Below are positions 22,025 to 45,696 of a stretch of DNA of 64,000 nt, one piece after another. Under the pieces are notes generated by a model. It saw nothing but the letters and a program-made list of their open reading frames with translations, did no database searches and was not told the DNA's origin. Both the position numbers and the translations under genes were made by a program. The stretch is from Arthrobacter sp. NEB 688 (GTDB lineage: Bacteria; Actinomycetota; Actinomycetes; Actinomycetales; Dermatophilaceae). The number at the start of each line of letters is the position of its first letter. The first letter of the stretch is position 1. Where the stretch lies: assembly GCF_013201035.1 (NCBI RefSeq), contig NZ_CP053707.1, forward strand, positions 3,968,001-4,032,000, in the 5' to 3' direction.

Positions 22025-22212
22025 GGGAGGAATTCCTCCCACCCCGCGACCACCACCCCCACCCCGGGAGTGAAACCACCCGCGGTGACAGCAAGACCTC
22101 CCACCCCGGGAGGGAAACCTCCCAGGATGGCGGGTAAACCAGTCACGCCGGGAGCGAGACCTTGCGCAGCGGGAGGGAAACCTCCCGCGGTGGGAGGTAA
22201 ACCACCCGTGCC
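22025..22212. repeat. 21-bp minisatellite, about 9 units, with palindromic units
   Basis: From 22025 the sequence repeats every 21 bp (units beginning near 22025, 22046, 22066, 22087, 22108, 22129, 22150, 22171, 22192). The best units start GGGAGGGAAACCTCCC, which is itself an inverted repeat (GGGAGG...CCTCCC); others are degenerate but keep the AAACC or AGACC core in register. It fills the gap between nnr and alr. Because 21 is a multiple of three, frames on both strands stay open (GGFPPGV-like heptads on the minus strand), but neither is in a plausible gene. Confidence 0.8.
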
Positions 22213-41427: not shown

Positions 41428-42126
41428 ATGCTTTTCGGTTCGAGTGCGAAGACCACCCTCCCCACCCGCGAGGAGGCCCTGCCGGGCCGCGAGCACCGCA
41501 TCTTCCCGGTGCCCACGACCCACACGGTGCTCGGCACCCCCCTGGAGGGTCCGTGGCCCGACGGCACCGAGGTGCTGTACGTGGCGATGGGCTGCTTCTG
41601 GGGCGTCGAGCGCATCTTCTGGAAGCTGCCCGGCGTCGTGACGACGGCGGCCGGCTACATGGGCGGGTTCACCCCCAACCCGACCTACGAGGAGACCTGC
41701 ACGGGGCGCACCGGCCACGCCGAGGCCGTCCTCGTCGCCTACGACCCCACCGCCACCTCCCCCGAGCTGCTGCTCAAGGCGTTCTGGGAGAACCACGACC
41801 CGACGCAGGGCAACCGGCAGTACAACGACGTCGGCACCGCCTACCGCTCGGCGATCTTCACGACGACCCCCGGCCAGGCCGCGGCCGCCGAGGCGACGCT
41901 CGAGGCGTTCCAGGGCGAGCTGACCAAGGTGGGCCGCGGGACCATCACGACGACCATCGCCACCGCCGAGCAGGCCGGCCCGTTCTACTACGCCGAGGAC
42001 TACCACCAGCAGTACCTCGACAAGAACCCCGGCGGCTACTGCAACCACGGCCCGAACGGGCTGACCTGCCCCGTCGGCGTCGCCAACCTCCCGGCCCAGA
42101 CGGACGTCGCGCCCCCGCGCGGCTGA
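41428..42126 (+). CDS. msrA: peptide-methionine (S)-S-oxide reductase
   Basis: A 232-aa repair enzyme reducing S-methionine sulfoxide. The catalytic Cys56 is in [43 protein letters not shown] and [14 protein letters not shown] are typical, and C-terminal recycling cysteines lie in [16 protein letters not shown]. The N-terminal 45 residues ([20 protein letters not shown]) match the longer MsrA class. Divergent from the double-GNAT gene. No ribosome site is seen before the ATG. Confidence 0.95.
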
Positions 42127-42141
42127 CCCACCCGGCCACCT

Positions 42142-42180
42142 CGACGAAGCCCCCTACCCGCCCGGGAGGGGGCTTCGTCG
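42142..42180 (+). terminator. intrinsic terminator after msrA, 14-bp stem
   Basis: CGACGAAGCCCCCT (42142-42155) pairs with AGGGGGCTTCGTCG (42167-42180). It separates msrA from the repeat array that follows. Confidence 0.85.
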
Positions 42181-42210
42181 TCTCTCGGACGAATCCGGCG
42201 GCCGAACCAC

Positions 42211-42598
42211 AAGCCCGCACGTGCGGGGTTATCGCTGTCCGGCCCCACTCCGGATCCCGCAATGCACGCACGTGCGGGGTTATCGCTGTCCACCCACCTC
42301 CCGAACCACGAGAAGCCCGCACGTGCCGGGATATCGCTGTCCGCTCACCTCTCCAACCACGAAAAGCCCGCGCGTGCCGGGATATCGCTGTCCGCTCACC
42401 TCGCCAACCACGAAAACCCCGCACGTGCCGACTTGCCCCGCGGACCGCCCCCGGCGCCGACCACGAAATGCCCGCACGTGCCGGGTCATCGCTCTGCGCC
42501 CACCTCCCGGACCACGAAATGCCCGCACGTGCCGGGATACCGCTGTCCGATCACCTGCCGAACTGCGCAAACCCCGCACGTGCGGGGTCGGCTCGGCC
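42211..42598. repeat. 51-bp repeat array A, 8 units
   Basis: The hexamer CACGTG (once CGCGTG) recurs at 42218, 42269, 42320, 42371, 42422, 42475, 42526 and 42577: steps of 51, 51, 51, 51, 53, 51 and 51 bp. Each unit has a hairpin-forming core GCCCGCACGTGC(G/C)GGG, then usually TATCGCTGTCC, a less conserved part, CACCTC, and ACCACGAAA before the next core. Units at 42320 and 42371 differ at about two positions, a recent duplication. The unit at 42422 has lost the TATCGCTG part. The array runs from the msrA terminator to the stop codon of the DUF559 gene. Confidence 0.92.
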
Positions 42599-43627
42599 TC
42601 AGGCGCTGCGCAGGTGCCGTGGCCCGAAGTACCGGCGCCACTCGTCGGACCGGCGAGTGATGCGCTCGCCACGCTCGGTGAGGACGGTGGCGACCCGACG
42701 CACGGTGGCCTCCGGCTCGACCCACAGCCCCGGGGAGGTGACGACGACCATCCGCCAGCCCCAGCCGTCGAACTCCTCACGCCGCCGGATGTCGCCCGCC
42801 CACTGCTCGGGGTCCTCCGCGTGCTGGCGGCCGTCGTACTCGACGCTCACCTTGCGTGCGCGGTAGCCCATGTCGGCCCGCCGCAGCAACGCCCCGTCCT
42901 CGTCGTGGAAGCGCAGGTCGGTCTCCGGCTCCGGGAGCCCGGCGAGCAGGAGGAGCATCCGGGTGCGGGACTCGGGCCCCGAGTCGACACCCACCCGGAC
43001 GAGCGAAGCGGCCCGGCGGGCCAGGCGCCGGTGCCGGCCCGTCGTCGCGGCCGCGGCGACGAGCGCATCCGGCGTCGTAGATCCGGCGTGCACGAGGCTG
43101 TCGCCGAGGACGACGAGCTCGACGACATCGAGGTCTTCGGCGCAGTCGAGGAACGTGCGTTCCGGTGTCGTGACCCGCAGGCCGTGACGGGTGGTGATGC
43201 CCGAGCGGTCCGACGAGACGCGCGCGTCGACGCCGTCGACGTCCATCCGGCCCCACTCGAGCAGCCGACGGGCCTTCGTCGAACAGCCCGCGCCGCCGCC
43301 CCTCGCCCGCGAGCGCGCCTCCCGCGAAGCCATCCGCTCGACGGCGTCCGGTCGGAGCGTCGTCACGTGGGTCTGCCAGTCATCGGGGGCGATGCCGCCC
43401 CAGAGCGCGGCCGCCGTGTGCCGCGAGACGACGGTCGCCGCCGGCGCGACGAGCATCGCCGCCCGGGCCCGGACGCGGGCGTCGACGGCAGCCCCTGCGT
43501 CCACGTACACGCCGTGCACGAGCCGCCGGAAGCGCGGGCCCCGCAGCGACGCCTCGGTCGCGAGGCCGCGCGCCATCGCCTCGACGCCGAGGAACGGGCG
43601 GGAGGTGTCGAGCGGCTCGTCGGTCAC
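42599..43627 (-). CDS. DUF559 (Vsr-like endonuclease fold) protein with N-terminal AbiEi-like region
   Basis: A protein of about 342 aa. The C-terminal part has the PD-(D/E)XK layout of DUF559/Vsr proteins: SRTRMLLLLAGLPEPETDL, LLRRADMGYRARKVSVEYDGRQH (Asp, then Glu-x-Asp), and DIRRREEFDGWGWRMVVVT. The N-terminal half (RFRRLVHGVYVDAG, VVSRHTAAALWGG, THVTTL) resembles the AbiEi antitoxin-like region often joined to it. Start is uncertain: GTG 43627 is chosen, an ATG at 43675 is possible. The gene is bracketed by two arrays of the same 51-bp repeat, which start within a few bp of its stop and about 60 bp before its start. Cellular role unknown. Confidence 0.8.
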   Translation of the reverse strand: MTDEPLDTSRPFLGVEAMARGLATEASLRGPRFRRLVHGVYVDAGAAVDARVRARAAMLVAPAATVVSRHTAAALWGGIAPDDWQTHVTTLRPDAVERMASREARSRARGGGAGCSTKARRLLEWGRMDVDGVDARVSSDRSGITTRHGLRVTTPERTFLDCAEDLDVVELVVLGDSLVHAGSTTPDALVAAAATTGRHRRLARRAASLVRVGVDSGPESRTRMLLLLAGLPEPETDLRFHDEDGALLRRADMGYRARKVSVEYDGRQHAEDPEQWAGDIRRREEFDGWGWRMVVVTSPGLWVEPEATVRRVATVLTERGERITRRSDEWRRYFGPRHLRSA

Positions 43628-43687
43628 AGGGTCGAGACTGCCCCGATGAGCCCGGTCGCCGCTGGCGTCATCCACAGGCTCCGGAAC

Positions 43688-43910
43688 CTCGCACGTGCGG
43701 GGTTATCGCTGTCCGAGATGCACCCCGGTCGCGACAAGCCCGCACGTGAGGGGTTATCGCTGCCCGGCCACCTCCCGGACCACGAAAAGTCCGCACGTGA
43801 GGGGTTGTCGCTGCCCGGCCACCCCCGACCACGAAAACCCCGCACGTGCCGGGTTATCGCTGCCCGAACCCACCCCCGACCACGAAAACCCCGCACCTGC
43901 GGGGTTCCGG
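43688..43910. repeat. 51-bp repeat array B, 5 units, same family as array A
   Basis: CACGTG (last unit CACCTG) occurs at 43692, 43743, 43794, 43843 and 43894, steps of 51, 51, 49 and 51 bp, in the same orientation as array A. Units share CCGCACGTG, GGGGTTATCGCTG(T/C)CC and CGACCACGAAAA. It lies between the DUF559 start and the terminator of the MFS gene. Confidence 0.9.
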
Positions 43911-43935: not shown

Positions 43936-43975
43936 CACGAGGCCCTCCGGTCCCTGTCGGGCGGAGGGCCTCGTG
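43936..43975 (-). terminator. hairpin terminator after the MFS exporter
   Basis: CACGAGGCCCTCCG (43936-43949) pairs with 43962-43975 over a 12-nt loop, 20 nt beyond the exporter stop codon on the minus strand. Confidence 0.75.
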
Positions 43976-43995: not shown

Positions 43996-45696
43996 TCAGC
44001 GCACGGCGGGCTCCGGCTGGCGGCCCACCGCGGCGTCGCGGTCGGTGTCGACGTCGACGTCCGTCGCGCGGGCCGGGGTGGTCACCGGCTCCGGGCTGGA
44101 CTGCGACATCGTGTCGAGCATCTCGTGGCCGGCGTGCTCCGCGGCCACGGCCGGGGTGTCGTCGTGGTTGCTGTCGCGCAGCGGGAGCGCCTTGATGGCG
44201 AAGGTCGCCAGGAGCACGAGCGCGACGACCGGCAGGCCGATGAGGAAGACCTCGTGCAGCTGGTCGGCCAGGCCCTGGCGCACCGCGGTCGCGACGGCCG
44301 GCGGCAGCTGGGCGAGCGCGGCCGGGTCGAGCACGGACCCCGCGCTGGCGGCGCCCTCGGGCATCGAGGCCGCGGCCCCGGCGGGGAGGTGGGACGCGAT
44401 GGCGCCGCCGAGCCCGCTGGTCAGCACGGTGCCGAAGACGGCGATGCCGACCGTCGACCCGACGTTGCGGAAGAACTGGCTCGAGGCCGTCGCGACCCCG
44501 AGGTCGCGCTTCTCGGAGGCGTTCTGGACGACGAGCGTGTACTGCTGCATCGCCATCCCGATCCCGATGCCGAGCACGACCATCGCCAGCGTCAGCTGGG
44601 TCTGCGTCGACTCGAAGGTGAGCCGGGTCAGGAGCCAGATGCCGGCGCCCATGACGACGACACCGACGACCATGAACGGCTTGTAGACGCCGGTCCGTGT
44701 GATGGCGAGGCCGGTGAGGATGCCCATGACGATGAGGCCGACCATGAGCGGCGCGAGGATGAGGCCGGAGTTCGTGGCGTCGACACCGAGCACACCCTGG
44801 GCGAAGACCGGGATGTAGATGATCGAGCCGAACATCACCATCGCCAGGCCGAAGCTCGCGATGTTGGCCGCCGTGAACACGCGGGAACGGAAGAGGCGCA
44901 GCGGGATCACCGGCTCCTCGGCGCGGTTCTCGGCGAAGACGAAGGCGACGAGGCCCACGACGCCGACCACGTAGAGACCGATGATGGTCGCCGAGCCCCA
45001 CGGGTAGGACGTGCCGCCCCACGAGGTGGCGAGCAGGACCGCGGTGAGGCCGACCGCCAGCGTGGCGATGCCCCAGCTGTCGACCTTGGCCTCACGGCGC
45101 TCGTGCGGCAGGTGGAGGAAGCGCAGGATGAAGCCGGTGGCGACGACGCCGATCGGGATGCCCGCGAAGAACAGCCAGCGCCAGCCCCAGTGGTCGGTGA
45201 TGAACCCGCCGGCGAGCGGCCCCGCGACGGACGTGACGCCGAAGACGGCGCCCATGAGGCCCTGGTACTTGCCGCGCTGCCGCGGCGGGATGATGTCGCC
45301 GATGATGGTCTGCGACAGCGGCATCACGGTGCCCATGCCGAGGCCCTGGATGGCGCGGGCGGCGACGAGCACCCAGAAGGACTGGGCGAAGCCGGCGACG
45401 AGCGAGCCGACCATGAAGACGACGAGGCCGGCGATGTAGAAGCCGCGGCGGCCGTAGAGGTCGGAGAACTTGCCGACGATCGGGACGGTGATCGCCGAGA
45501 CGAGGAGGGCGGCGGTGGCGACCCAGCTGTAGTGGTCCATCCCGCCGAGCTCGGAGACGATGCGCGGCATCGCCGGCCCGACGATGGTCTGGCTGACGGA
45601 GGCGACGAGCATCCCGAGCATCAGGCCCAGGAACACCCGCCGGGAGGCGGGGCTGAGCTTGTACGGCTGGGGAGCCGTGGCGGTCGCGGTGGTCAT
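43996..45696 (-). CDS. DHA2-family MFS multidrug exporter
   Basis: A 566-aa membrane protein with about 14 helices, the size of EmrB/QacA drug:proton antiporters. Motif A is VGKFSDLYGRRGFYIAG, motif B AARAIQGLGMG, and motif C region GVTSVAGPLAGGFITDHWGWRWLFF. The cytoplasmic C-terminus (residues 515-566) is acidic and unstructured. It overlaps the MarR gene (ATGA) and is most likely repressed by it. Substrates unknown; drugs or cations are typical. Confidence 0.93.
   Translation of the reverse strand: MTTATATAPQPYKLSPASRRVFLGLMLGMLVASVSQTIVGPAMPRIVSELGGMDHYSWVATAALLVSAITVPIVGKFSDLYGRRGFYIAGLVVFMVGSLVAGFAQSFWVLVAARAIQGLGMGTVMPLSQTIIGDIIPPRQRGKYQGLMGAVFGVTSVAGPLAGGFITDHWGWRWLFFAGIPIGVVATGFILRFLHLPHERREAKVDSWGIATLAVGLTAVLLATSWGGTSYPWGSATIIGLYVVGVVGLVAFVFAENRAEEPVIPLRLFRSRVFTAANIASFGLAMVMFGSIIYIPVFAQGVLGVDATNSGLILAPLMVGLIVMGILTGLAITRTGVYKPFMVVGVVVMGAGIWLLTRLTFESTQTQLTLAMVVLGIGIGMAMQQYTLVVQNASEKRDLGVATASSQFFRNVGSTVGIAVFGTVLTSGLGGAIASHLPAGAAASMPEGAASAGSVLDPAALAQLPPAVATAVRQGLADQLHEVFLIGLPVVALVLLATFAIKALPLRDSNHDDTPAVAAEHAGHEMLDTMSQSSPEPVTTPARATDVDVDTDRDAAVGRQPEPAVR

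Follow-up and report, generated by a model that had tools for sequence, protein, structure and literature searches.

Palindromic repeats beside Vsr-like DUF559-type nuclease genes of Actinobacteria: a probable partnership resembling that of REP and RAYT

The nuclease gene and its flanking arrays

The window analysed here, meaning the whole stretch of 64,000 nucleotides, comprises bases 3,968,001-4,032,000 of a one-contig genome (4,077,299 bases) from the genus Phycicoccus. Within it, a nuclease-like gene lies between two arrays of palindromes, and the pair of arrays is itself enclosed by two flank genes, as follows.

41428..42126, + strand: msrA (PF01625), flank gene outside the pair
42143..42179, + strand: terminator-like hairpin 3' of msrA, identified by eye; outer border of the insert
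42209..42590, + strand: array A, eight CACGTG-centred palindromes at a 51-bp step (one step of 53)
42599..43675, - strand: DUF559/MTES_1575-type (Vsr-like PD-(D/E)XK) gene with an AbiEi-like part; start uncertain, 43627 or 43675
43685..43908, + strand: array B, five palindromes at a 51-bp step (one step of 49)
43936..43975, - strand: terminator-like hairpin 3' of the MFS gene, identified by eye; outer border on the other side
43996..45696, - strand: MFS transporter gene (PF07690), flank gene outside the pair

The palindromes of array A (CACGTG or a variant) are located at 42218, 42269, 42320, 42371, 42422, 42475, 42526 and 42577, with steps of 51, 51, 51, 51, 53, 51 and 51, and those of array B at 43692, 43743, 43794, 43843 and 43894, with steps of 51, 51, 49 and 51; all 13 are oriented alike. 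Tandem Repeats Finder returned a period of 51 for both arrays (42211-42587 and 43690-43906) and, together with the list of positions, confirms the enclosure of the gene by CACGTG-centred palindromes that had been proposed in a sequence-only reading of this DNA. The counts given in that reading, of eight plus five units in one orientation with a 51-bp step and rare steps of 49 or 53, proved to be exact, with the refinement that n palindromes bound n-1 intervals. When CCGCACGTGNNGGG was searched for with up to one mismatch, 20 matches were found in the window as opposed to 2.76 expected, 18 of them inside the arrays, and 20 matches were reached in none of 100 shuffled sequences. The tight fit of the arrays around the gene also held, with the nuclease stop codon located approximately 10 bp from array A and the terminator-like hairpins at the outer borders. 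A hairpin resembling that at the 3' end of msrA is present in P. jejuensis too, and P. sonneratiae has a single such hairpin between msrA and the MFS gene. A promoter and terminator scan returned one terminator-like site, located within the repeat. The window's own units are decayed, showing only weak DNA folding (z -1.8 to -3.5 in four of four tested). Comparison with known RNA families gave six Rfam matches with E values of up to 1, none of which reached the gathering score, and such an identity was rejected. Elsewhere in the window, positions 22065-22208 hold imperfect 21-bp tandem units with the consensus CGGGAGGGAAACCTCCCGCGG, which is itself an inverted repeat.

The nuclease gene encodes 358 amino acids if translated from the start at 43675, although the gene caller favours 43627. 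Scores of single family proteins fall below the Pfam cut-offs, and the window protein is no exception (MTES_1575, 26.3 bits against a cut-off of 38.2; DUF559, 15.2 bits against 20.6; both below the gathering score), but it does match AbiEi in PADLOC at 1.5e-7. Among 64 relatives examined at E 0.01, 52 match PF18741 (MTES_1575) and 40 match PF04480 (DUF559), whereas none of the 64 was matched by NCBIfam; one PADLOC AbiEi model matches 51 of them. The earlier description of a DUF559/Vsr-like gene with an AbiEi-like part is thereby supported. A profile built from the 64-row alignment detected the endonuclease-like structure PDB 3hrl (6e-6) and the mobile-intron protein PDB 3r3p (0.0087), the latter presumably being I-Bth0305I, a homing endonuclease of the Vsr fold. 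Residues S232, E235, R239 and G282 are invariant in the 64 rows, and D268, E279, D295 and R298 are conserved in at least 90% of them; by analogy, these residues are read as a PD-(D/E)XK core and as putatively catalytic. The alignment (A3) comprised 62 of 70 intact reference proteins plus the window protein and L071, with L159 taken from a later start. The window protein replaced L208, and the alignment does not include L226, L261, L263, L267, L269, L271 or L157, of which L269 and L271 have no flank repeat; five short frames (L217, L233, L265, L277 and L183) had been skipped beforehand. An AlphaFold2 model computed from a three-row alignment (A2) had a pLDDT of 37 and was not usable, so the domain assignment rests on sequence profiles.

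Comparison with the P. jejuensis orthologue gave a dN/dS of 0.16 for the nuclease gene, 0.14 for its MFS neighbour and 0.09 for msrA, showing the nuclease gene to be under purifying selection; its dS of 0.43 is above the values for the neighbours (0.22 and 0.10). With the window protein as query (E 1e-5), relatives were found in two of 72,556 plasmid records, both partial, and in none of 50,697 phage records. Since the tandem core was also absent from viral_contigs (0 stretches), a phage origin was rejected.

Dispersal of the repeat and of the gene in the genus

The core of the repeat, CCGCACGTGNNGGGNTATCGCTGYCC, was found with up to three mismatches at 76 sites in 23 loci genome-wide, with some palindromes counted on both strands, as opposed to no sites for the reversed pattern used as a control. 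The arrays begin and end with a palindrome, contain from two to nine of them, and keep a step of 51 bp, with 49, 50, 52, 53 and 59 being rarer. None of the 24 arrays checked is overlapped by a called gene, indicating that they are extragenic, and no clear pattern was evident in their position or strand relative to genes. Only one of the 23 array loci falls within 1.5-2.7 Mb, a 1.2-Mb stretch roughly opposite the contig start, which is possibly a terminus effect.

No family gene was found within 10 kb of the 22 other repeat loci of the genome. The sequence-only reading had named precisely such scatter, without a tie to DUF559 genes, as an outcome that would refute a pairing of nuclease and repeat, and the absence of a tie was at first the favoured conclusion because no other family gene lies near the window's repeat. 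The scatter itself is therefore real, but the pairing survives it: that conclusion was overturned by orthologues that are bracketed anew at another locus, by flank repeats across the class, and by a match between gene clade and repeat type, all described below. The test was in any case too strict, because REP families are dispersed as well.

In P. jejuensis NRRL B-24460 (G003; family Intrasporangiaceae), 16 of the 20 array loci fetched are orthologous to array loci of the window's genome, and the number of palindromes differs at 13 of these 16, including the msrA-MFS locus, which has 5+4 palindromes in P. jejuensis and 8+5 here. Arrays thus keep their place between species and change in length. 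Five of the six repeat loci of P. sonneratiae (G005) are single units, of which three are near-perfect inverted repeats, and in some units the near-perfect inverted repeat measures 59 nt. A P. sonneratiae unit has a DNA fold z of -10.9, similar to values obtained with G017 (-10.7) and G365 (-11.1), indicating that inverted doublets are hairpin-capable. P. sonneratiae carries seven repeat pairs at its six loci (L146-L151) without a close orthologue of the nuclease gene, which may have been lost in this species once the repeat had spread.

An orthologue of the nuclease gene is found at a different locus in G006 and G007 (Nostocoides sp. Soil756), again with palindromes on both sides and a 50/51-bp step. 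The G007 orthologue is 63-66% identical, and that of G006 is a broken copy in two frames (73-75% and 49-53% identical). In G005, G008 and G001, msrA directly adjoins the MFS gene, and both the nuclease gene and the arrays are missing from between them; in G002 another gene seemingly lies between the two, and for the other relatives the stretch fetched did not include the MFS gene. Over the genus, a close orthologue is present in four of five repeat-bearing species as opposed to none of seven repeat-free species (exact probability, calculated by hand, 5/495).

Three copies of GCACGTGC at a 49-54-bp step were found in 78 stretches in a scan of named genomes, some of which look coding or due to chance (Kutzneria, Oscillospiraceae, Actinomadura, Puerhibacterium). 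A profile of three orthologues located family genes beside arrays in an Intrasporangiaceae MAG, Ornithinimicrobium F0845 and Nocardioides Soil797, with arrays on both sides in the latter two and on one side in the MAG, where a contig edge is near on the other. Whole-genome profile searches of 12 genomes matching a GCACGTGC pattern revealed a family gene between two arrays of the genome's own palindrome in Rhodococcus yunnanensis, a second Nocardioides family gene paired with another palindrome, further family genes in G025, and, in Puerhibacterium puerhi (L184), a family gene between long palindromes, one of them perfect over 42 bp. Three of the 12 genomes (Pyxidicoccus, Paenibacillus and G159) gave no profile match; in the myxobacterium Pyxidicoccus caerfyrddinensis (L099), whose genome lacks a match to the nuclease profile, ACTTCTGCACGTGCAGAAGT palindromes follow one another with a step of 50/51 bp. 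Rhodococcus sp. nzgw98 has many arrays of CACGTG palindromes at a 50-52-bp step (L068, L085, L087 and others) for which no partner was found, its two profile matches having no CACGTG in their 3.5-kb stretches. Matches to the family at L157 (G006), L083 (Ornithinimicrobium) and L113 (Nocardioides) span two reading frames, and these copies therefore look broken or mis-sequenced. Arrays that are unrelated in sequence (the window, L281, L292, L195, L083 and G017) share a step of 50-53 bp, which is unexplained.

Flank repeats across the class and repeat type by gene clade

A search of 295 Actinomycetes genomes returned family matches at E 1e-15 in 122. The 500-base upstream and downstream flanks of family genes were compared with each other by local alignment in both orientations, with windows that may overlap the gene ends, and the scores were set against those of 162 random control genes of 600-1600 bases, drawn from 22 regions (20 survey genomes and two of this genus), for which the 99th percentile was 40.4 and the maximum 45. 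The results are given by set.

All 75 family genes: 63 above the control 95th percentile, 61 above the 99th, 57 above the maximum
Profile-rank subset of 47 genes: 41 above the control 95th percentile, 40 above the 99th, 38 above the maximum

The full set is not independent, since it includes the window (L208) and genes whose flank repeats were known in advance (L038, L183, L189, L195 and others). The subset of 47 is the fair one, although 20 of its genes were chosen manually from the ranking so as to cover a range of genomes, with their flanks unseen. L230 and L071 (short flank) were left out of the tests, as were L282, L283 and L284, which have no profile match. In 14 of the 75 genes, and in 7 of the 47, the two flanks did not share a repeat scoring higher than the 99th percentile. 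Of the 14, L157 and L159 are bracketed by diverged repeat copies; L269, L271 and L277 are among the others. At least one gene lies above the 99th percentile in 26 of 30 genus labels, where named and unnamed labels may overlap. Most of the shared flanks measure 30-125 bp, many being inverted repeats of 50-85 bp, and in most alignments inspected they lie no more than about 200 bp from the gene ends. Fewer genes have hairpins on both sides, 37 of the 75 exceeding the 95th percentile of the controls and 19 their maximum. That the gene might occur widely without repeats, which would also have spoken against a pairing, is accordingly not what was found, most of the relatives surveyed having their own flank repeat.

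The four other family genes of the window's genome all have flank repeats scoring above the control maximum. One of them, at L281 (G000:C1:3759500-3764700), has its own dispersed repeat, GTGTCGATTGATGCAC, with 51-53 and 64-bp steps; copies also occur at L016 (922-1021) and L020 (4656-4953), and at L020 the GTGTCGATTGATGCAC array directly adjoins an array of the window's repeat. The flank repeats of the remaining three genes look local or nearly so, on the basis of 710 kb (17% of the genome) examined.

Specificity between gene and repeat was apparent in genus g105 of family f35, which we take to be Micromonospora-like. GTTGATCNTGGAG occurs in 9-282 copies per genome in 11 genomes of this genus, as opposed to 0-1 for the control, and inverted pairs with a spacing of 47-60 bp are frequent among the places listed; elsewhere in f35 it occurs once in G287 (genus g121) and not at all in G230 (g92). 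The g105 family genes form two clusters at 55% identity, with 38-43% identity between clusters among the first nine genes. CATGG-type elements lie beside all 13 distinct clade-1 genes (12 from g105 and one from g121), and CTTGG-type elements beside all nine clade-2 genes, with elements on both sides in 18 of the 22; two of the four one-sided genes are located where a contig ends. Both clade/repeat pairs occur together in several genomes, and at one clade-1 locus there is, in addition, a CTTGG element approximately 850 bp away. The probability of so perfect a split is 1/497,420 (by hand) if genes are assumed to be independent, which relatives are not fully. Within the 22-gene set, L318 was chosen by its repeats, the flanking elements of L320, L321 and L223 could be seen in advance from coordinates, and L331 and L223 are one locus and were counted once; three further loci of this comparison, L319, L332 and L333, have no family gene. 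In G331, a family gene was forecast at two places with elements about 1 kb apart, their gene content being unseen, against the background of one match known in the genome, its place not shown; a family gene is present at one and absent from the other (L319). Two lone doublets also had no family gene. In several genes (L225, L226, L229, L321 and L326) the repeats overlap the stop codon.

Comparison with known systems and interpretation

REP/REPIN elements are short palindromes scattered in extragenic DNA that, with their RAYT (TnpA-REP) enzymes, constitute 'REPtrons'; they form hairpin-capable inverted doublets and tandem clusters beside the enzyme gene, with a different repeat for each enzyme, and the enzyme has not been seen on plasmids (PMC3116915, PMC8049555, PMC3733652). 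The system described here is alike in its dispersed extragenic palindromes, its hairpin-capable doublets, the repeats flanking the enzyme gene and the match of repeat type to enzyme clade. The enzyme differs: RAYT is a tyrosine transposase of the HUH/Y1 type, whereas the present protein is a PD-(D/E)XK nuclease of Vsr/homing type with an AbiEi-like part. Indeed, a RAYT/Y1 partner was rejected, PF01797 (Y1_Tnp) being matched in none of 13 genomes (12 of the genus, including the window's own, plus G017) but in 6 of 14 control genomes, E. coli among them. Nor does GTAG, the end tag of REP, or its complement CTAC occur in arrays A and B, the only arrays scanned for it. The pair works like REP/RAYT and is not a REP/RAYT system; the anatomy is shared, and binding and cutting are inferred.

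Other systems share single features. A DUF559/Vsr-type nuclease domain is found in Caulobacter VsrA, a Vsr-like DUF559 endonuclease (PMC12907096). Vsr, however, is described in connection with T:G mismatch repair and cytosine methylation, whereas here an AbiEi-like part is present in the protein, the association of the gene is with palindromic repeats, and no methylase is directly adjacent. The mobile-intron endonuclease 3r3p resembles it in the profile of the nuclease core and offers a model of selfish, site-specific cutting, but no intron or intein was seen here and the gene lies between whole repeat copies rather than splitting a site. Unlike in the AbiE type IV toxin-antitoxin system, no AbiEii toxin gene is adjacent. 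The MIRU-type tandem intergenic repeats of mycobacteria also form dispersed tandem arrays of variable unit number; to our knowledge they have neither a palindromic core nor a cognate enzyme gene.

The recurrence of the gene-repeat pairing across Actinobacteria, with a different repeat each time, suggests that the nuclease and the repeats are partners, and other explanations need to be weighed against this. The protein could feasibly be no more than a DNA-binding regulator, with the flank repeats as its own operators, the dispersed copies as a regulon or decoys, and a nuclease fold that is not used on the repeats. The frequency of the AbiEi match among the relatives and the proximity of shared repeats to both gene ends would fit such a role, but repeats that also lie downstream of the stop codon, or overlap it, would be unusual operators, the nuclease core residues are conserved, and up to 282 dispersed copies per genome look like multiplying elements; this explanation is considered unlikely, if worth keeping in mind. 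It is also conceivable, though improbable, that the gene is a passenger or founder in a mobile unit that has the palindromes as its ends and is moved by some other recombinase. In its favour, two distinct loci in the genus hold this gene bracketed by palindromes, and the msrA-MFS junction is empty in three relatives. Against this, the repeat type is specific to each nuclease clade and therefore the nuclease itself matters; moreover, no Y1 transposase, the sole recombinase type searched for, was found in the 13 genomes, most repeat loci of the window's genome lack the gene, and the gene family is nearly absent from plasmids and phages, as judged with one protein as query.

A module for host defence or genome marking, in which the nuclease spares the repeats or reads them as marks of self in a restriction-like or abortive manner, has only the remote resemblance to AbiEi in its favour, and is very doubtful given that neither a partner toxin nor a methylase lies directly beside the gene, the neighbours being those for MsrA and the MFS transporter. 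The least credible explanation is that of a neutral minisatellite split by a chance gene, which the sequence-only reading had offered as its alternative. Changes of array length in place between species are what a minisatellite would show, but the class-wide comparison contradicts it, since unrelated repeats recur around the same gene family (38 of 47 genes above the maximum of 162 controls) and the match of clade to repeat is perfect.

The pairing of nuclease and repeat in the manner of REP and RAYT, raised in that same reading, is by contrast supported by the re-bracketed orthologues, the class-wide flanks and the clade-repeat match, with action on the repeats remaining an inference. The interpretation preferred here is that the nuclease and the palindromic repeats are cognate partners, a REP/RAYT-like pair acting by cut-and-copy, to which a probability of roughly two in three is assigned. 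To the observed arrangement, dispersal, class-wide recurrence, cognate specificity, conserved putatively catalytic residues, purifying selection and change in array length, it adds binding, cutting and propagation by inference. In the mechanism envisaged, an AbiEi-like part, presumed to bind DNA, is joined to a Vsr/homing-type PD-(D/E)XK nuclease domain; the protein would recognise the palindrome, either double-stranded or as a hairpin or cruciform of an inverted unit, and the nuclease would nick or cut there. Repair may then lengthen or shorten the array in place and, rarely, seed a copy elsewhere. The enzyme would thus be to its repeats what RAYT is to REP, except that it would act by hydrolytic cleavage followed by copying, where a tyrosine transposase acts by strand transfer; since strand joining of the RAYT kind is not expected of a hydrolytic nuclease, spread would have to proceed via repair.

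A broader proposal is put forward tentatively, as one we would stop just short of backing: that this hydrolytic Vsr/homing-type nuclease family, an unexplained DUF of Actinobacteria, is a second, independent REP-like invention and the dedicated engine of many unrelated families of palindromic repeats, spread by targeted cutting and copying rather than by transposition. No paper linking DUF559 to such repeats was found among titles and the beginnings of abstracts, with subscription journals and preprints outside the scope of the search. The pairing supplies a widespread family of unexplained function with a specific partner and with a substrate that can be tested, and the data suggest that short palindromic repeats in genomes that lack RAYT can have a dedicated enzyme. 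Because the flanks name the candidate recognition sequence of each gene, specificity can be tested in pairs, with two clades and two repeat types that in several cases share a genome. Should the enzymes cut their own repeats, the family would represent a naturally diverse set of palindrome-specific nucleases.
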